Assembly: GCA_944382925.1 (NCBI GenBank)
Contig: CALWNX010000131.1
Span: 1-35,994 of the forward strand
DNA: 35,994 nucleotides
Origin: an uncultured Clostridia bacterium
GTDB taxonomy: Bacteria > Bacillota > Clostridia > Peptostreptococcales > Anaerovoracaceae
Direction: 5' to 3'
The position numbers were made by a program, and so were the translations under genes. Shown here in pieces: positions 7,352-26,925 of this stretch. Each line of letters opens with the position of its first letter. Position 1 is the stretch's first letter. The notes under the pieces are model-generated. The model saw nothing but the letters and a program-made list of their open reading frames with translations, was not told the DNA's origin and ran no database searches.

Positions 7352-8668
7352 ATGAGTGCTATAATCTTACTTGTTATTCTGATCGCTTTGAACGCGATGT
7401 TCGCCTCGGCGGAAATCGCGGTCATATCCATGAACGACGTCAAACTGAAAAATATGGCCGAGGAAGGCAACAAGAGGGCGCAGAAGCTGGTCAGCCTGAC
7501 CGAGCAGCCGGCCAGGTTCCTTTCGACCATTCAGGTCGCGATCACGCTGGCCAGCCTGCTGCAGAGTGCGGTGGCGGCCGAAACATTTGCTGATCAGATC
7601 GTTGACAGGCTGATCGCCGCCGGCATCAGCATTTCGCCGTCTATCTTAAACGGCGTTTCCATCGTGGTCATCACCGTCATCCTTTCGTACTTTACGCTGA
7701 TTTTCGGCGAGCTGGTGCCGAAGAGAGTGGCGATGAAAAAGACCGATATGATCGCTCTGGGCATGGCCGGAATTCTCTATGCTGTTGCCAAGGCCTTTGC
7801 GCCGATTGTCTGGTTCCTGACCAAGTCGACCAACGCCATCCTCAGGCTCATCAGGATCAATCCTGAAGAAGAGGACAGCACGGTGACTGAGGAATCGATC
7901 AAGATGATGCTGGCCGAGGGTAAGGAAAAAGGCGTCATCCAGCCGGAGGAAGATGAGCTGATTCAGAATATCTTTGAGTTTGACGACATCACGGCTGAGG
8001 AGATGTGTACGCACAGACGCGATGTTATCGCGCTGAGCCTTTCCGATGACATAGACGAATGGAAGAGAACCATCAGGGAGAGCCGCCACACCAAGTATCC
8101 TGTTTGCGGCGATACGCTGGACGACATCGTGGGCATCCTCGACACGCGTGATTATTTTATGCACCCTGGTACCGACCAGCAGCAGATAGTAGAAAAAAAT
8201 GTGGACCGGGCCATGCTGGTGCCTGAGAGCATGAAGGCCAACGCGCTGTTCAAGAAGATGCAGGAAAACAGAGAATACTTTGCGGTCGTGATCGACGAGT
8301 ACGGCGGCATGTCGGGTATCGTCACCCTGCACGATATAACCGAGGCGCTGCTGGGCGACCTGTCGGAAAAGGAAAGCCCGGTCAAGCCGGAGGAAATCGA
8401 AAAGATCACCGACAACAAGTTTGTCATTCAGGGCAGCGCTGATCTTGAGGATGTGGCGGACGCTCTGGATATGGAGCTGCCGACCGATATTTACGACACC
8501 TTCAGCGGCTTTATCTGCGGCGTCCTGGGCCGGATCCCGGAGGAGGGCGAGAAGTTCCAGTGCCGCTTTGAGAACCTGCTCATTACCGCGCACAACGTTA
8601 AGCATCATATTGTCGAGAGCGCGACCATCGAGCGCACGCCGGTGCAGAAAGAGGACGAAGAGGAATAA
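7352..8668 (+). CDS. CNNM/CorC (HlyC/CorC) family membrane protein, probable Mg2+/divalent-cation transport or efflux
   Basis: The 438 aa show the classic layout. A DUF21/CNNM membrane domain (about 1-190) starts MSAIILLVILIALNAMFASAE and carries the ELVPKRVAMK motif after a membrane segment. A CBS pair (about 205-325) contains VCGDTLDDIVGILDTRDY and YFAVVIDEYGGMSGIVTL. A CorC_HlyC domain (about 345-425) contains VIQGSADLEDVADAL. Proteins of this type (MpfA, CorC, archaeal CNNM) are linked to Mg2+ homeostasis; older 'hemolysin' labels are misleading. An AGGAG ribosome site sits about 12 nt before the ATG. The gene stands alone behind its own promoter and attenuator-like leader, which suggests regulation, perhaps by Mg2+ (inference). 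Confidence 0.9.
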   Translation: MSAIILLVILIALNAMFASAEIAVISMNDVKLKNMAEEGNKRAQKLVSLTEQPARFLSTIQVAITLASLLQSAVAAETFADQIVDRLIAAGISISPSILNGVSIVVITVILSYFTLIFGELVPKRVAMKKTDMIALGMAGILYAVAKAFAPIVWFLTKSTNAILRLIRINPEEEDSTVTEESIKMMLAEGKEKGVIQPEEDELIQNIFEFDDITAEEMCTHRRDVIALSLSDDIDEWKRTIRESRHTKYPVCGDTLDDIVGILDTRDYFMHPGTDQQQIVEKNVDRAMLVPESMKANALFKKMQENREYFAVVIDEYGGMSGIVTLHDITEALLGDLSEKESPVKPEEIEKITDNKFVIQGSADLEDVADALDMELPTDIYDTFSGFICGVLGRIPEEGEKFQCRFENLLITAHNVKHHIVESATIERTPVQKEDEEE

Positions 8669-8671
8669 TAA

Positions 8672-8733
8672 GGCGCCCCGGGACGCCGGGACGCTGGGGG
8701 CGCCGGCACTTCGGTACGTCGGGGCGCCGGCAC
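8672..8733. repeat. GC-rich inverted/direct repeat after the CNNM gene, possible terminator
   Basis: GGCGCCCC (8672-8679) and GGGGCGCC (8697-8704) can form a strong stem; the string GGGGCGCCGGCAC then occurs twice (about 8698 and 8721). No clear T-run follows directly, so it may be a terminator without a classical tail or simply an intergenic repeat. It ends where the MITE-like element begins. Confidence 0.4.
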
Positions 8734-9028
8734 TATTTTGCTTTCTCCACTTTTTTGGTTATCGCAGCCCTGCAAGATGAATTTTGCAAAATTTTTCACC
8801 GCTTATATAGAAAATGAAGCTCTGCCAAGTTGAAAAGGCCATGAGCTTCTTTGTTTTTAGGTAAAATTAAGGCTTAGAGCAAGAAGAATGAGGACTTTTT
8901 ATGCGTACGGCAGGGCGTTTTCAACTTGCGACTATGCGTTTAAGACTGAAAGAGAAGAAAAGTTTTGCAAAATTCATCTTGCGACGGTTGTATTTTTGCT
9001 TTGCTTGAGAAAGCAACTTGCGCAAGCA
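8734..9028 (+). mobile_element. MITE-like element, copy 1 (nested terminal inverted repeats, no protein)
   Basis: The ends carry inverted repeats of about 54 bp: TTGCTTTCTC (8738-8747), a 24-bp less conserved spacer, then GCAAGATGAATTTTGCAAAA (8772-8791), mirrored on the right and ending GAGAAAGCAA (9007-9016). A second inner pair is CAAGTTGAAAA (8826-8836) and TTTTCAACTTG (8918-8928). A second copy at 28054-28348 is collinear and roughly nine-tenths identical by eye. A third, more diverged and inverted copy lies at 25788-26064. No transposase is encoded; the short open frames inside are not convincing genes. A duplication abuts the right end. Confidence 0.75.
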
Positions 9029-9078
9029 GCGGGGAAGCAACTTGAGAAAGCAACTTGCGCAAGCAGCCGGGGAAGCAA
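9004..9078. repeat. Tandem duplication (37/38 bp x 2) at the right end of MITE copy 1
   Basis: Positions 9004-9040 and 9041-9078 are the same sequence except for one extra C in the second unit. The unit includes the MITE terminal motif GAGAAAGC, so the duplication arose at or after insertion. Confidence 0.85.
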
Positions 9079-9129
9079 AGAGCGCCGCTACGCTGATGCT
9101 CATAGGCATCATTCCAAAAGCGGCGCTCT
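9079..9129 (-). terminator. Strong hairpin, probable terminator of the leftward M20-like gene
   Basis: AGAGCGCCGCT (9079-9089) pairs perfectly with AGCGGCGCTCT (9119-9129). Inside, TGATGC and GCATCA can form a second stem. It lies 18 nt after the stop of the minus-strand gene, but only a short T-run follows on that strand, so termination efficiency is uncertain. Confidence 0.5.
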
Positions 9130-9147
9130 GTTCGTTACAGTTTTTTT

Positions 9148-10575
9148 CTACTCTGCCGCCGGATGGCTGAGGTAGGTGATCAGCCCACCGGCGAAATTGT
9201 CCATCGTGCGCCTGGTCACGCCCAGGGTGATGACGGCCGCTTCGGCATTTTTGCTGCTGATGAGGGCGGCGGGCGTCCATTCTGCGATGCCGATGCTGTC
9301 AAGGTCGATGCTCTGATAATCGCTGTAGGCCTGATGGAAGGCTTCACCCAGCGCTTCGCCGGCTTCACCGGCGTGGAACGGCGCCTGTTCCTCTTCGAGA
9401 CTGTAGTTCACGTCGGTGAGGGCGCTGATCGTCTGATATGCGGTGGCCATATCCGCAAGCAGTTCATCATCGTAGCTGGCGGCTGCCACCTCAATGCTGA
9501 GGGCGTGATTATCTGTCGTGATCGAGCCGATGTTGGCGATCGAAGCGATGTCGCCGTTGTCATCCTTGTAATCAACGCCGCTGATGGCGGTATAGAGCAG
9601 GCTGACGATGCTTTCGGTATCTTCTGTATTGATCACTTGAGCAGGAGTGTCGACCACCTCATAGGTGCAGGAAAGCTCCGGCATATCGGCGATGTTATCA
9701 TCATAGAAGTTCTCGATGGCGCTGTCAAGCCTGCGCTCCAGCTTGGTGGCTGAGTCGGCGTTGACGACGATGGTAAGCTGCGCATCCTGCGGAGTCATAT
9801 CAGCGTCGCGTCCGCCGCTGAAGGAAGCAAGCTCAAAGAGGATCGAGCTCGATTTTAAATCAGCCAGCAGTTCACCGAGGAATTTGATCGGATTGTCTGT
9901 CTGCGCATTAGCAGCGCTGAATCTCAAAGCGGGCAGGCCGGAGATGCTGACCTTGTAGGCGACGTCATAAGAGGTTTCCTGCAGGCGCAGCTCCTTGGAA
10001 AGCACGTATCTGTGGAAGCCGCCGGTAGAAGCGGAAAGCCGCGAGCTCTGCACGTCGCTGAGACAGAAGACTTCGGTTTCGTCGCTAAAATATTTGGCAG
10101 AAAGCTGCTCGGCGTTGAGCTTGCTGCCCAGCTCTTCCGAAACGAAGATGATCCTGTATTCGCCGTGCGGCATATCGTTCTTGGCCACGGTCAGAGCGCA
10201 GACGATGCTGTTTTTGTACGAAGCCATGCTGGCGTAATCGTAGCCGCAGACGATGACGACAGGATTTTTATCTTCCATGCCCTCGCTGGCGGGAAGAGTA
10301 TAGATCACGTTGCCGTAGCTGTCCGTGCTCACGTCGATACCCTTGTTCTCGGCCCAGTCGATGAGATAACGGCTTGCTGCCGCCTGACTGTCCATCGCGG
10401 CCAGCGAATCGGTCAGATCTGTGTCATAGGCTGAAACGCGATTGTTGACCGTTTCTTCCAGCGTAGGCGGCCGTTCCTCATCATGTATAAAGTAAAAATA
10501 CGCCGCCGTCGCCAGCGCCGCCAGCAGCAGGACAGCGGCACAGCAGATAATAATAAGCTTCTTTTTCTTCGACAT
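9148..10575 (-). CDS. Membrane-anchored, degenerate M20/PepD-like protein (probable pseudo-peptidase)
   Basis: 475 aa. A Lys-rich start and hydrophobic segment (about 7-30) predict an N-terminal anchor with the rest outside. Residues 69-160 follow the M20/PepD (aminoacyl-histidine dipeptidase) pattern: a YLIDWAENKGIDV helix, SYGNVIYTLPAS, then VVIVCGYDYASM where active enzymes have a G-H-x-D metal motif, and YKNSIVCAL where they have ADNGIGVAL. The EE of the catalytic motif is kept in VSEELGS (about 145-151). A later ISGLPALRFSAANAQ segment sits where PepD has its GGHSG loop. With Tyr for His and Lys for the bridging Asp, metal-dependent hydrolysis looks lost. Ribosome site AAGGTGG. Assignment rests on pattern reading only. 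Confidence 0.6.
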   Translation of the reverse strand: MSKKKKLIIICCAAVLLLAALATAAYFYFIHDEERPPTLEETVNNRVSAYDTDLTDSLAAMDSQAAASRYLIDWAENKGIDVSTDSYGNVIYTLPASEGMEDKNPVVIVCGYDYASMASYKNSIVCALTVAKNDMPHGEYRIIFVSEELGSKLNAEQLSAKYFSDETEVFCLSDVQSSRLSASTGGFHRYVLSKELRLQETSYDVAYKVSISGLPALRFSAANAQTDNPIKFLGELLADLKSSSILFELASFSGGRDADMTPQDAQLTIVVNADSATKLERRLDSAIENFYDDNIADMPELSCTYEVVDTPAQVINTEDTESIVSLLYTAISGVDYKDDNGDIASIANIGSITTDNHALSIEVAAASYDDELLADMATAYQTISALTDVNYSLEEEQAPFHAGEAGEALGEAFHQAYSDYQSIDLDSIGIAEWTPAALISSKNAEAAVITLGVTRRTMDNFAGGLITYLSHPAAE

Positions 10576-10732
10576 TTAAACCACCTTAATTTTTATTTTT
10601 TCTGAAATATGCAAAATGTACCAGTCATATATAATAAGTTATGATAGCATAATTTTACCCTCAATGTCACTATTTCATAAAATCTTCACAAACAATTAAA
10701 AAAATTTTTTAACAAAGAAAACGTTTTTTATC
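10576..10732. other. AT-rich intergenic region between divergent genes
   Basis: Strongly AT-rich spacer with a TTAAAAAAATTTTTTAA palindrome near 10697-10713. No convincing promoter for the leftward gene was found beyond loose TAAT/TATAT strings. Confidence 0.4.
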
Positions 10733-10761
10733 TTGACATGCGGCTTAATTAGTGGTAGATT
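10733..10761 (+). promoter_or_regulatory. Predicted sigma-A promoter of nrdDG
   Basis: Perfect TTGACA (10733-10738), 17-bp spacer, TAGATT (10756-10761). Transcription would start near 10768, about 50 nt before nrdD. Confidence 0.65.
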
Positions 10762-10773
10762 CTTTATGCAGCT

Positions 10774-10789
10774 ACTAGATATTGTATGT
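10774..10789. promoter_or_regulatory. NrdR-box-like operator
   Basis: On the minus strand the 16 bp read ACATACAATATCTAGT. Its CAATATCTAG core matches the NrdR-box core CwAtATaTwG at 9 of 10 positions. The box lies inside a GCTAC...GTAGC dyad (10771-10792) just downstream of the predicted start of transcription. NrdR boxes usually come in pairs; I found only one, so this is tentative. Confidence 0.4.
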
Positions 10790-10818
10790 AGCCCAAGTGA
10801 GAAAAGAGGGAGAAGAAC

Positions 10819-13164
10819 ATGGACAGCATAAAGAAAATCATCAAAAGAGACGGCCGTATGGTGGACTACGATGTGAACAAGATCGCCGACGCCATCTTCA
10901 AGGCGGCGCAGGTCCTGGGCGGAAAGGATAGAGAAATGGCCATGTATCTGGCCAAGCAGACTGAGCTTTATCTGCTCGAGATCTGCCACAATCAGGTGCC
11001 GACAGTTGAACAGATTCAGGATGCTGTCGAAAAGATACTGATCGAAAACGGCCACGCCAGAACGGCCAAGGAGTACATCCTCTACCGTGCCGAGCGCACG
11101 CGCGCCAGGGATATGAACACCAGGCTGATGAAGATCTACGAGGATCTGACCTTCAAGGAAGCCAAGGAAAACGAGATCAAGCGCGAGAACGCCAACATCG
11201 ACGGCAATACGGCCATGGGCACCATGCTCAAATACGGCTCCGAGGGCGCCAAGGAATTCTATAAGATGTACGTCATCGATCCCAAGCACGTAAAGGCGCA
11301 TGAGGAGGGCGATATTCATATCCACGATATGGACTTTTACACCCTGACTATGACCTGCTGCCAGATCGATCTGGTCAAGCTGCTCAAGGGCGGCTTTTCG
11401 ACCGGTCACGGCCACCTCAGAGAGCCTAACGACATCGAAAGCTACGCGGCGCTGGCCTGTATCGCCATCCAGTCCAACCAGAACGACCAGCACGGCGGCC
11501 AGTCGGTGCCGAACTTCGACTACGGCATGGCTCCGGGCGTGCGCAAGACCTATAAAAAGCTTTATCTGACCAATCTGGGCAAGATGCTCGATATTCTTGA
11601 GGACGTTGAGGACGGTGAGGAGCGCATGAAGGCTCTGGGCAAGAAGATCGAGGAGGAGCACGGAGTATGTCCGTGCATGGCCTGGGACAACAACTATAAA
11701 GAGCTGGAGCTTGCAGAGCTCAAGAAGATAGTTTCCGAGGAAGAAGCCAAGAGGATGCAGGACAGGGCGACCAAGTTTGCCGACAAGGAGATCAGACGCA
11801 AGACCTATCAGGCCATGGAAGCGCTGATCCACAACCTCAACACCATGCACTCGAGAGCCGGCGCGCAGGTGCCTTTCAGCTCCATCAACTACGGTACGGA
11901 CACCTCGCCTGAGGGGCGTCTGGTCATGGAATCAGTGATGCTGGCTACGGAGGCGGGTCTTGGCAACGGCGAGACGCCGATCTTCCCGATCCAGATCTTC
12001 AAGGTCAAGGAAGGCGTGAGCTTCAATCCGGGAGATCCCAACTACGATCTCTTCAAGCTGGCCTGCCGGGTATCGGCCAAGAGGCTGTTCCCGAACTTCT
12101 CCTTCCTGGACGCTCCTTTCAACAAGAAATACCTGGTGGAAGGAGATCCGAACACGGAGATCGCCTATATGGGCTGCCGTACCAGAGTAATAGCCAACAA
12201 TTACGACCCGACGAGAGAGATCGTCACCGGCAGAGGAAACCTGAGCTTCACCTCGATCAATCTGCCGCGCCTGGCTATCAAGGCCAAGGGCGATCTGGAC
12301 ATGTTCTTCGAGGGACTTGACAATATGATCGATCTGGCCTGCGGCCAGCTTATGGACAGGTTTAAGATCCAGTCACAGAAAAAAGTGCGCAACTTCCCGT
12401 TCCTGATGGGACAGGGCATCTGGCTCGATTCCGACAAGCTCGGCCCTGACGATACCATCGCCGAGGTCATCAAGCACGGCACGCTGACCGTCGGCTTCAT
12501 CGGCCTGGCAGAGTGCCTCAAAGCCCTGACCGGCAAGCACCACGGCGAATCAAAGGAATCGCAGGTGCTCGGACTGGAGATCGTCGGCTACATGAGAAAG
12601 CGCGTGGACGAGATGTCCAGAAAGACCGGTCTCAACTGGTCGCTGATCGCTACGCCGGCGGAAGGTCTGTCGGGCAGATTCGTGCGCATCGACAAGGAAA
12701 AATACGGCGTTATCGAGGGCGTGACCGACAGAGATTATTACACCAACAGCTTCCACATCCCGGTTTACTACGATATTAACGCCTTTGACAAGATCAGGCT
12801 GGAGGCGCCGTATCACGAGCTGACCAACGGCGGGCATATCTCCTATATAGAGCTCGACGGCGACCCGCTGAAGAATCTGGACGCCTTTGAAAAGGTGGTA
12901 AGGTTCATGAAGGAGGCCGGCATCGGCTACGGCTCCATCAACCACCCGGTCGACAGGGACCCTTGCTGCGGATATACCGGCATCATCGATAACGAATGCC
13001 CGATGTGCCACCGCAAGGAGGACGAGGGCGACGTAGGCTTCGAGCGTATCCGCCGCATCACCGGTTATCTGGTGGGCACCATGGATCAGTGGAACAACGC
13101 CAAAAAGGCGGAAGAAAGAGACAGGGTAAAACATGATATCAGCACAGGAATGGAAAAGCTTTGA
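10819..13164 (+). CDS. nrdD: Anaerobic (class III) ribonucleoside-triphosphate reductase NrdD
   Basis: NrdD reduces ribonucleotides to deoxyribonucleotides with a glycyl radical. The 781 aa are full length. Residues 2-96 are an ATP-cone, the allosteric dATP/ATP domain. The barrel carries NQNDQHGGQSVPNFDYG, the MGCRTRV loop likely to hold the thiyl-radical Cys, and GNLSFTSINLPRLA. The glycyl radical should be Gly749 in RITGYLVG. The metal-binding loop before it has Cys716-Cys717-Gly and CPMC (727-730), a variant of the double CX2C arrangement of other members. An AGAGGGAG ribosome site precedes the ATG. The gene overlaps nrdG, its activase. Confidence 0.98.
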   Translation: MDSIKKIIKRDGRMVDYDVNKIADAIFKAAQVLGGKDREMAMYLAKQTELYLLEICHNQVPTVEQIQDAVEKILIENGHARTAKEYILYRAERTRARDMNTRLMKIYEDLTFKEAKENEIKRENANIDGNTAMGTMLKYGSEGAKEFYKMYVIDPKHVKAHEEGDIHIHDMDFYTLTMTCCQIDLVKLLKGGFSTGHGHLREPNDIESYAALACIAIQSNQNDQHGGQSVPNFDYGMAPGVRKTYKKLYLTNLGKMLDILEDVEDGEERMKALGKKIEEEHGVCPCMAWDNNYKELELAELKKIVSEEEAKRMQDRATKFADKEIRRKTYQAMEALIHNLNTMHSRAGAQVPFSSINYGTDTSPEGRLVMESVMLATEAGLGNGETPIFPIQIFKVKEGVSFNPGDPNYDLFKLACRVSAKRLFPNFSFLDAPFNKKYLVEGDPNTEIAYMGCRTRVIANNYDPTREIVTGRGNLSFTSINLPRLAIKAKGDLDMFFEGLDNMIDLACGQLMDRFKIQSQKKVRNFPFLMGQGIWLDSDKLGPDDTIAEVIKHGTLTVGFIGLAECLKALTGKHHGESKESQVLGLEIVGYMRKRVDEMSRKTGLNWSLIATPAEGLSGRFVRIDKEKYGVIEGVTDRDYYTNSFHIPVYYDINAFDKIRLEAPYHELTNGGHISYIELDGDPLKNLDAFEKVVRFMKEAGIGYGSINHPVDRDPCCGYTGIIDNECPMCHRKEDEGDVGFERIRRITGYLVGTMDQWNNAKKAEERDRVKHDISTGMEKL

Positions 13165-19580: not shown

Positions 19581-20432
19581 CTAATAATTGACTTCCTCGC
19601 TGAGCGGCTTTTCCAGCAGCTCGGGATTTTCCAGCAGCACGCGCAGCAGCTTGATCGTGCGCGAGTAATAATAGCCGTCGGCCAGCCTTTCGTCGATCGT
19701 GAGGCCGATGTCGACGCATTCGCGCATTTTCAGCTTATTGTCGCCCTCGTAGACAGGGCGCTTTTTCTTTTCTCCCACCACGCAGAAGACAGAGCAGGTG
19801 CCCCAGTTGGTCAGATGGTGATAGGCGGCCTTGAGGCCGATGGAGCCGAGGTTGGCCAGCACTGCCGAAGCGTAGAAAGGGTCGGAAGCGATGATGGCGC
19901 GCGGCATCCAGCCATGACGGTCGAGAAAACGGGCGAGGGCGCCGACCATCTTCAGCAGCACGCCGGGCAGCTTCTGGATGATGTCCATGCTGGCGGTGGA
20001 GGGATCTTTTTCCTCCTTGCTGCGGCAGAGGGCGATCTGCTTTTTGATTTCCTCCCGCACGGTCTCGATCGTGTAATCGGGCTTTGAATGGATGAAGGCC
20101 AGCGCTTCGCCGCCGTCGTCGGCGAATTCTTTTTTCACGGTAAAGGCGGCCGAAACCTCGTTACGCTGGTACATGGTCTTGTTGGCGATAAAACGGTTCA
20201 TCTTCGGACGCAGGGTGATGACCTTCAGCAGGGCCGTGACCATGATCTGAAAGAGGTTGTATTCGTAGTCAGGATGCTCGCTGTTCTTTTTCTCCAGATA
20301 GGCGTTGATGGCCGTAAGGTCGATGCGCTCGCTGATGAAGGCTTCGTTGTCGCAGCGGTTAGGGTACATCAGCGGCATGATGCAGTGCATCGAGGTGATA
20401 TTTTTCAGTTTTTTGCCGTCTTTTCTGTTCAT
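19581..20432 (-). CDS. Stand-alone E2/CAT-fold acyltransferase-like protein
   Basis: 283 aa resembling the catalytic domain of 2-oxo-acid dehydrogenase E2 / chloramphenicol acetyltransferase, without lipoyl or E1-binding domains. The best segment is IASDPFYASAVLANLGSIGL (181-200) followed by YHHLTNWGT. The C-terminal TIDERLADGYYYSRT (246-259) matches the E2 motif DHRxxDG, but Glu248 stands where active E2 enzymes have catalytic His. From memory, this substitution is shared by a group of free-standing clostridial homologues, so the protein may not be a classical acyltransferase. AGGAGG ribosome site. It is the third gene of the response regulator-kinase operon, 26 nt after the kinase. Function unknown. 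Confidence 0.75.
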   Translation of the reverse strand: MNRKDGKKLKNITSMHCIMPLMYPNRCDNEAFISERIDLTAINAYLEKKNSEHPDYEYNLFQIMVTALLKVITLRPKMNRFIANKTMYQRNEVSAAFTVKKEFADDGGEALAFIHSKPDYTIETVREEIKKQIALCRSKEEKDPSTASMDIIQKLPGVLLKMVGALARFLDRHGWMPRAIIASDPFYASAVLANLGSIGLKAAYHHLTNWGTCSVFCVVGEKKKRPVYEGDNKLKMRECVDIGLTIDERLADGYYYSRTIKLLRVLLENPELLEKPLSEEVNY

Positions 20433-25787: not shown

Positions 25788-26064
25788 GGTTTCTCAACTA
25801 AATTGAAATATGACGCTTTCTGAGATGAATTTTGCAGCATTTTTCAACTCAAACACGCGAAAACGAATCCCCGCAAGTTGAAACGCTCCTTCACTGTTTT
25901 CCTTTTCGCGAATTGCCTTGAAAGAAAAGGGAAAAATTTAGTGCAGCCACGGCTGACCGGCTTTGTTTTCAACTTGCAGAACGCGGCTTTCCTTATTTTG
26001 CGGAGAACATTTCTGCAAAATTCATCTTAAGGCAGAGCTTAAAACAAAAAAGTGGAGAAAAGCA
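25788..26064 (-). mobile_element. MITE-like element, copy 3 (diverged, inverted orientation)
   Basis: On the minus strand the element begins TGCTTTTCTCCACTTTTTTG (26045-26064), as the left ends of copies 1 and 2. It then has the inner terminal motif AAGATGAATTTTGCA, the CAAGTTGAAAAC/GTTTCAACTTG inner inverted pair, and ends ATTTTGCAGCA...GATGAATT mirror and GAGAAA near 25790. Its core differs strongly from copies 1 and 2, so it is an older or separate subfamily. It ends about 30 bp before the EFR1 gene start. Confidence 0.65.
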
Positions 26065-26094
26065 TTATTAGCAACATTGGAGGAAGGGAAAACA

Positions 26095-26925
26095 ATGAAA
26101 AAGGTTTACGAGATAATTTTCAGTCCGACGGGGCACAGTAAAAAAGCTGCGGAGCTGATCGCCGGAGAGCTGATCGCCGGAGAGCTGCGCGGACAAAAAA
26201 AGACGGTCGACCTTTGCCTGCCTGGCGATGAGGAGAGGGAGACGGCCATAGAAGCGGGCAGCATCTGCGTTTTCTCCGCTCCCTGCTACGGCGGCCGCGT
26301 GCCGCAGACTGCCGCGGAGAGGATACTAAAACGCATCAAAGCGCCGCAGGGCAAAGAAAAGATCCCCGCCATCATCTGCGTCACCTACGGAAACCGCGCC
26401 TTTGAGGATGCGCTGCTCGAGCTTGCCGATCTGGTGGAAAAAGCAGGCTTTCGCGTGGCAGCCGCGGCCGCCCTGGTTGCGGAGCACAATATCGTGCACG
26501 AATTCGCGGCCGGCCGGCCCGACGAGAAAGATGAGCAGCAGATCAGGGCCTTCGCCGCCAAAGCCAGGCAGTTCCTTAATGAGGGAGCGGAAAGCGGCCT
26601 GAAAAAGGGAGCAGAAAGCGGCCTGGCAATCCCCGGCAACCGGCCGTATAAAACATGGAAGGCCTCTGCGCCGGATATCATCGTCGACAAAAGCACCTGC
26701 GTTTATTGCGGCATGTGCGCGCTCAAATGCCCGACGGCGGCGATTTCCAAAGATGGACAGAGGGTGGATAGGGGCAAGTGCATCGGCTGCATGCGCTGCC
26801 TTGCAATCTGCCGCAGCAGGAGCCTGCCGCCCGCATATGTCAGCGGCCTGAGAGAAAAAATCGCGCCGGCCTGTCAGGGGCGCAAAGAAAATCTTTTCTT
26901 TTTGCCATCAGATGCCTGTAAATAG
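26095..26925 (+). CDS. EFR1-type flavodoxin-ferredoxin fusion
   Basis: 276 aa from the ATG at 26095, chosen for the GGAGGAAGGG ribosome site just upstream; an earlier start would run into the MITE. The N-terminal flavodoxin-like part (about 1-165) has IIFSPTGHSKKAAE for FMN phosphate binding and CYGGRVPQTAAERI. Two [4Fe-4S] clusters follow: C202-x2-C205-x2-C208-x3-C212-P and C229-x2-C232-x2-C235-x3-C239. Such proteins carry electrons in anaerobes; partners are unknown. Two in-frame duplications are visible: GELIA (15 bp x 2) at 26152-26181 and GAESGL at about 164-177. Confidence 0.9.
   Translation: MKKVYEIIFSPTGHSKKAAELIAGELIAGELRGQKKTVDLCLPGDEERETAIEAGSICVFSAPCYGGRVPQTAAERILKRIKAPQGKEKIPAIICVTYGNRAFEDALLELADLVEKAGFRVAAAAALVAEHNIVHEFAAGRPDEKDEQQIRAFAAKARQFLNEGAESGLKKGAESGLAIPGNRPYKTWKASAPDIIVDKSTCVYCGMCALKCPTAAISKDGQRVDRGKCIGCMRCLAICRSRSLPPAYVSGLREKIAPACQGRKENLFFLPSDACK

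Follow-up and report, generated by a model that had tools for sequence, protein, structure and literature searches.

Positions 9148-10575 of the window (the whole stretch of DNA that was analyzed, 35,994 nucleotides) hold one gene only, which encodes a protein of 475 amino acids. The earlier note had given the same limits, and these hold, with the correction that the gene lies on the minus strand: it begins with an ATG at 10575 and ends with a stop codon at 9148-9150 (475 codons). We refer to it as the pseudo-PepD gene, as explained below. The nearest gene to its left, of the CNNM/CorC type (7352-8668), is convergent, and the right-hand neighbor, nrdD (10819), is divergent. The gene's own strand carries a promoter-like site at 10641-10670 (GTGACA-18-TATCAT, with a TG ahead of the second hexamer), a ribosome-binding-like AAGGTGG directly 5' of the ATG, and a terminator-like site at 8694-8673; the first two are consensus matches only. 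Because of these neighbors and the promoter-like and terminator-like sites, the gene looks monocistronic. No RNA element reached its gathering score across 8600-10900. We also considered a prophage origin for the locus and rejected it: there was a single weak PHROG match (2.6e-8), of unknown function.

Elsewhere in the window, 28178-29374 matches the sporulation membrane protein YlbJ (TIGR02871, E = 3.7e-41) below that model's cutoff, and 25963-26922 encodes an EFR1-family ferredoxin that is barely at the curated cutoff (75.1 versus 75 bits). Two open frames on the minus strand, 1485-2774 and 19584-20432 (430 and 283 amino acids), have no NCBIfam match; the first overlaps a 200-amino-acid frame on the opposite strand and may be spurious.

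In an NCBIfam scan, the pseudo-PepD protein matched TIGR01893 (aminoacyl-histidine dipeptidase) with E = 1.2e-23, but it scored just 83.6 bits against a curated cutoff of 343.75. Pfam yielded only M20_dimer, below the cutoff (E = 0.032), and a chance-like match to DUF2218. Two solved PepD structures matched by sequence, 2qyv (2qyv_A, 2e-16) and 3mru (4.7e-12). When a profile of 13 anchored proteins (A4) was aligned by hhalign with a profile of 12 true PepDs (A5), 389 columns matched at 99.9% (E = 1.2e-31), and the alignment ended exactly at the start of the second of two deletions described below. An AlphaFold2 model built from A4 (pLDDT 89.3, pTM 0.79) matched 2qyv in Foldseek with E = 9.2e-36. 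In VIA, it superimposed on 2qyv with Z = 35.3 (4.4 A, 429 residues) and on 3mru with Z = 30.3, while other M20 enzymes gave Z of 25 and lower. The relationship to M20/PepD that the earlier note proposed is borne out, well beyond chance, by the profile-profile match and the superposition. The matches to PepD structures rule out an unrelated fold for the predicted model, and, within the limits of a model, they settle the fold: the protein is, by sequence and predicted structure, a true homolog of M20C/PepD with the full-length two-domain fold.

The metal ligands of PepD, according to PMC6271292, are His80, Asp119 (which bridges the metals), Glu150, Asp173, and His461; Asp82 and Glu149 are catalytic, and Arg369 of the lid domain is essential for activity. 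In the window protein, His80, Asp119, and His461 are absent. First, GYDY (residues 111-114; 10234-10245, minus strand, as are all features of the protein) stands in the place of GHxD, as had been noted from the sequence, with G111 at the position of His80 and D113 at that of the catalytic Asp82. Second, YKNS (residues 120-123; 10207-10218) had been read as a replacement of the DNG with the bridging aspartate. That ligand is indeed lost, but not by substitution in place: most of the preceding loop, which carries Asp119 in PepD, is deleted, and 4 residues are left of a segment that has 33 in PepD. Third, the extent of the loss was understated, as a second deletion had been missed: at ITLGV (residues 449-453; 9217-9231), the PepD segment with His461 is absent (1 residue versus 12). 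Arg369 and Asn260 are replaced as well, by Y368 and D257. In the predicted model, strand 106-112 leads almost directly into helix 114-131, and strand 447-453 leads into helix 458-470; these junctions fall where PepD carries its ligand loops.

The earlier note also described the EE motif as kept. It is present as E147-E148 (10132-10137), a remnant of the Glu149/Glu150 pair, but it is not conserved in the genus. A pairwise alignment places D113, E147, E148, and D174 of the window protein at Asp82, Glu149, Glu150, and Asp173. Across six members of the genus, however, the residues are E,Q,Q,Q,E,E at position 147, E,E,E,E,N,E at position 148, and D,N,N,N,N,N at position 174, so these positions are not being kept. 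The position of Arg369 is Y,Y,W,C,Y,N in the same six proteins. We searched the rest of the window protein for metal ligands that might still be intact and found none. HAGEAG (from H401) was considered as the HAGLE motif of PepD and was dropped, as the profile alignment places the HAGLE columns after SIGIAEW.

The N-terminal anchor proposed from the sequence holds up: residues 1-30 (10486-10575) comprise a basic n-region (KKKK) and a hydrophobic stretch with a Kyte-Doolittle value of 2.82 across 19 residues, and the predicted model has a helix at 2-30. The genus lacks a lipobox and has the hydrophobic type of anchor. With a basic start and a hydrophobic anchor, the window protein is probably anchored and extracytoplasmic.

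To define the relatives, a first search covered 61 near genomes, 32 of which had a match. Within the same GTDB family, 204 of 296 genomes then matched a 14-row profile with E no higher than 1e-5; by our reading of the scores, 148 of the 296 matched at 1e-56 or better, and the weaker matches are true PepDs or more distant members. The alignment comprises 91 proteins, which came from 80 fetched stretches and from earlier and named loci; identical copies were removed. Manual sorting gave three groups: 10 PepDs without an anchor, 11 exported-type proteins that keep both loops (one of them truncated at a contig end), and 70 loop-deleted proteins, which lack both loops and include the window's. In the fetched loci, each frame was taken from one stop codon to the next; the alignment and the dN/dS values may therefore include a few residues that precede the true start.

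All seven ligand and catalytic residues are present in all 10 unanchored PepDs, whereas none of the 81 exported-type proteins keeps every metal ligand. The earlier note had suggested checking if homologs share the lost ligands: His461 is missing from every one of the 81 exported-type proteins, whereas all 10 unanchored PepDs have it. Even the loop-keeping proteins retain at most three of the seven residues. Both loops are deleted in 70 of the 81, with 3-7 residues in segment one (33-39 in PepDs) and a single residue in segment two (12 in PepDs); letters in the Asp82 and Asp119 columns of the loop-deleted proteins were left uncounted because they depend on gap placement. Exported-type proteins are also visibly anchored in 80 of 81 cases, and the remaining one is cut by a contig end. 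The anchor is a lipobox in 39 of the 70 loop-deleted proteins and hydrophobic in 31, although lipoboxes were called by pattern and two of the 31 (L131 and L139) look like missed ones. Among the 11 loop-keeping proteins, nine have a lipobox and one has a hydrophobic anchor; none of the 10 unanchored PepDs has either. The claim that the protein is inactive, anchored, and outside the membrane is thus well supported at the level of sequence, with the lost ligands common to homologs. The 11 relatives that keep the loops look like intermediates.

In the samples that we searched, the anchored pseudo-PepD family is confined to one GTDB family. Beyond that family, the best match in an order sample (297 genomes) scored 160 bits, a class sample (341 genomes) had one match, in G726, and a phylum sample (348 genomes) had six. 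Three of these seven outside matches from the class and phylum samples were inspected, and all three keep every ligand. In G726, which belongs to another order of the class, the PepD encoded by L188:1998-3671 retains every ligand, but its N-terminus is basic and it has a weakly hydrophobic stretch that may span the membrane; the product is perhaps an anchored enzyme that still works, in contrast to the pseudo-family. The window genome (92.8% complete) has no TIGR01893 match over the cutoff, so no ordinary PepD was found there; a congener, G005, has both an ordinary PepD and a pseudo-PepD. Some of the related named MAG records are from ruminant gut.

We built a quick tree of the 91 proteins without the deleted columns and the N-terminus. 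A single clade (SH-aLRT 100) unites 69 of the 70 proteins with deleted loops. Outside it fall the loop-keeping proteins, and the PepDs lie further out. Thus, the simplest order of events would be that the anchor and the ligand loss came earlier and the loop deletion afterwards. There are two complications. L117, although it has both deletions, groups with the loop-keeping proteins, at the end of a long branch (2.84); there may thus have been one or two deletion events. Also, L175 lacks an anchor and has intact ligands, but its partner in the tree, L174, is anchored; on this tree, the anchor was therefore not acquired in a single clean step.

Loss of the catalytic residues might be taken as a sign of a functionless, decaying gene. 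However, frames are open in distant genera, the same locus is kept, and dN/dS is low in close pairs: 0.133 for L183/L070 (at dS = 0.47), 0.046 for L113/L114, and 0.086 for L184/L119, with dS saturated in 6 of the 10 pseudo-PepD pairs. These values (0.05-0.13) contradict decay, which we consider so improbable as to be ruled out. By these sequence comparisons the family is under purifying selection, and it fits the definition of a pseudo-enzyme, that is, a homolog without catalytic residues that is kept by selection.

What selection keeps has changed. The best conserved part of the pseudo-family is the lid/dimerization domain (residues about 176-399; 9379-10050): in 25-residue blocks, mean conservation is 0.41-0.48 over residues 226-350 versus 0.24-0.40 in catalytic blocks. 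In true PepDs, the catalytic domain is the best-kept part. Similarly, dN is lower in the lid than in the catalytic domain in 9 of 10 pseudo pairs (the exception is L184/L119). The single PepD pair examined shows the reverse, with dN = 0.236 in the lid and 0.106 in the catalytic domain. So the cleft is no longer what selection keeps best. The most conserved positions of the pseudo-family include Y328 (98%), G333 (96%), L386 (94%), and W74 (91%), which could be for structural reasons.

This pattern bears on the suggestion, made in the earlier note, of a peptide-binding or sensory role, in which the old cleft of a receptor or sensor for peptides or small molecules would bind without cutting and report via the anchor or a partner. 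In its favor, Gram-positive bacteria commonly carry receptors of the lipoprotein type on their outer side, and the model retains the two-domain architecture. But the equivalents of the substrate-anchoring Arg369 and Asn260 are lost and variable, the catalytic parts are the least conserved, and in the loci examined we saw no recurrent neighbor that encodes an ABC transporter, a kinase, or a chemoreceptor. We therefore consider a receptor or sensor unlikely. A scaffold or regulator would fit the sequences better, though the protein may bind some peptide.

Another alternative is that the protein is still an enzyme, with new chemistry in a remodeled cleft that might involve Cys110, or D113 with E147 and E148. 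Position 110 is Cys in 71% (by weight) of the loop-deleted set, and D113 is kept in five of the six genus members. However, C110 is absent from several branches, E147, E148, and D174 vary within the genus, and we found no family-wide conserved polar cluster that replaces the metal site. A new enzymatic activity seems very unlikely.

To ask what the non-catalytic protein might do, we examined its neighbors. Of the loop-deleted loci with at least 700 bases ahead of the gene, 63 of 67 have a neighbor among GNAT, nrdD, asp23, and recG, and 4 of the 11 loop-keeping loci have recG or an RlmD-type methyltransferase gene. None of the 10 PepD loci has a GNAT, nrdD, asp23, recG, or RlmD-type neighbor, with flanks that are shorter for most; one of them, L048, has an nrdG-cluster gene. 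These contexts reflect vertical inheritance at mainly one locus. As gene order is generally conserved here, adjacency by itself proves little.

The GNAT gene, whose best NCBIfam match is PseH (below the cutoff), is the divergent neighbor at 34 of the 67 loop-deleted loci, in both the nrdDG and the asp23-recG contexts, and the starts of the two genes are 48-359 nucleotides apart in 35 of 36 cluster members. Divergent pairs were seen at L106, L113, L114, L108, L178, L129, and L142 and at 24 nrdD loci, that is, in two chromosomal contexts. Pseudo-PepD might then be an accessory lipoprotein of the adjacent acetyltransferase or of the anaerobic ribonucleotide reductase. This is quite unlikely: the body of pseudo-PepD is predicted to be outside, while GNAT and NrdDG are presumably cytoplasmic, and GNAT is missing from the other half of the loci, including the window's.

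In five genera (g52, g80, g85, g96, and g102), the pseudo-PepD gene is followed within about 3 kb by a class A PBP gene (assigned by PF00912 and PF00905) in the same orientation. The pairing is present in all 29 testable genomes of these genera (10 in fetched loci, 14 from listed coordinates compared by eye, and 5 more that were fetched); the thirtieth, G303, ends at a contig edge. In the 10 fetched loci, eight pairs are adjacent, with gaps of 54-238 nucleotides, one has one gene in between, and one has two. Class A PBP genes were found at L126, L138, L140, L146, L153-L156, L163, L176, L191-L193, L195, and L196. The pairing counts as a single evolutionary event, in one subclade. At eight other loci (g5, g12, and g103), the convergent neighbor encodes a GH25 muramidase. 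The window's locus has no PBP, GH25, or GNAT gene, and the PBP pairing is absent from its genus.

More broadly, among 19 of 50 distinct first downstream genes that were scanned, along with L106:7008-8507, we found no common theme or general operon partner; their functions are mixed, and most are convergent and unrelated. Wall-related matches (YkuD with PG_binding_4, a CW_binding_2 protein, and GH25) occur in some lineages only. L106:7008-8507 itself encodes an L,D-transpeptidase (YkuD) with PG_binding_4 and lies beyond the GH25 gene that adjoins pseudo-PepD, in a local cluster of wall genes.

Overall, the sequences and models show homology and a common fold, an anchor, ligand loss, shared deletions, vertical inheritance at one locus, and purifying selection. 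We propose that pseudo-PepD is a membrane-anchored, extracytoplasmic pseudo-dipeptidase that serves as a non-catalytic scaffold or regulator in the envelope. An M20C (PepD) gene would have gained an export signal; the exported protein would have lost its di-metal site by substitution; and two ligand-bearing loops would then have been removed by deletion. The resulting protein would act without catalysis, its lid domain binding a partner, at the interface of membrane and wall. Since the locus contexts lack a common theme and the PBP pairing occurs in five genera, we give the envelope role a probability of roughly 0.6 and, within it, treat a link to PBPs as tentative and on balance doubtful. Of the candidate processes, peptidoglycan synthesis by class A PBPs would be the likeliest; there, pseudo-PepD would act much as LpoA/LpoB or MacP do, whose folds we take to be unrelated. 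What connects pseudo-PepD to this putative cofactor role is solely gene adjacency, in five genera. It is rather unlikely that the exported, disarmed dipeptidase became a dedicated class A PBP cofactor, or another regulator of peptidoglycan synthesis, and as such went to fixation throughout a large gut-dwelling family of Clostridia. If it did, then a class of wall-synthesis regulators arose independently on a peptidase fold, and if the wall link is real, pseudo-PepD is a candidate partner of class A PBPs in gut Clostridia.

Two implications depend less on the partner. First, the proteins form a graded series: a working cytoplasmic enzyme, then anchored forms in which the ligands have eroded, and finally forms without the active-site loops. 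Most of this series sits at a single chromosomal locus, so the origin of a pseudo-enzyme can be traced stepwise. Second, pseudo-PepD genes miss M20 peptidase models or family cutoffs, so automatic annotation would tend toward "hypothetical" or "dipeptidase," both of which are misleading.

Pseudo-metallopeptidases retain a peptidase fold without catalysis and use it for protein interactions, as described in a review (PMC11266112), and pseudo-PepD resembles them in this respect. A term search of that review gave no M20 example ("M20" occurs only inside two reference DOIs), and among open-license papers we found no report of a lipoprotein or anchored M20/PepD pseudo-peptidase family in bacteria. 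LpoA/LpoB (PMC3060616) and MacP (PMC10746261) are membrane-bound, non-enzymatic partners of class A PBPs; we compare them with pseudo-PepD only as a way of working. With PepD itself (MEROPS M20C; TIGR01893; 2qyv and 3mru), the window protein shares its full length and, in the model, the two-domain fold over the 429 aligned residues, but it is membrane anchored, its di-metal site is gone, the Asp119 loop and the His461 segment are deleted, and Arg369 and Asn260 are lost. The transferrin receptor and nicastrin are animal pseudo-peptidases with ectodomains from the M28 branch of clan MH. Like pseudo-PepD, they have one membrane anchor and, outside the membrane, a di-zinc peptidase domain that is no longer active; in contrast, they are M28 and eukaryotic, and pseudo-PepD is M20C, bacterial, and of independent origin. 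Pseudo-PepD is not categorically new: the group is the known one of pseudo-peptidases, and the new part would be an exported, loop-deleted branch of M20C that is spread over one bacterial family.
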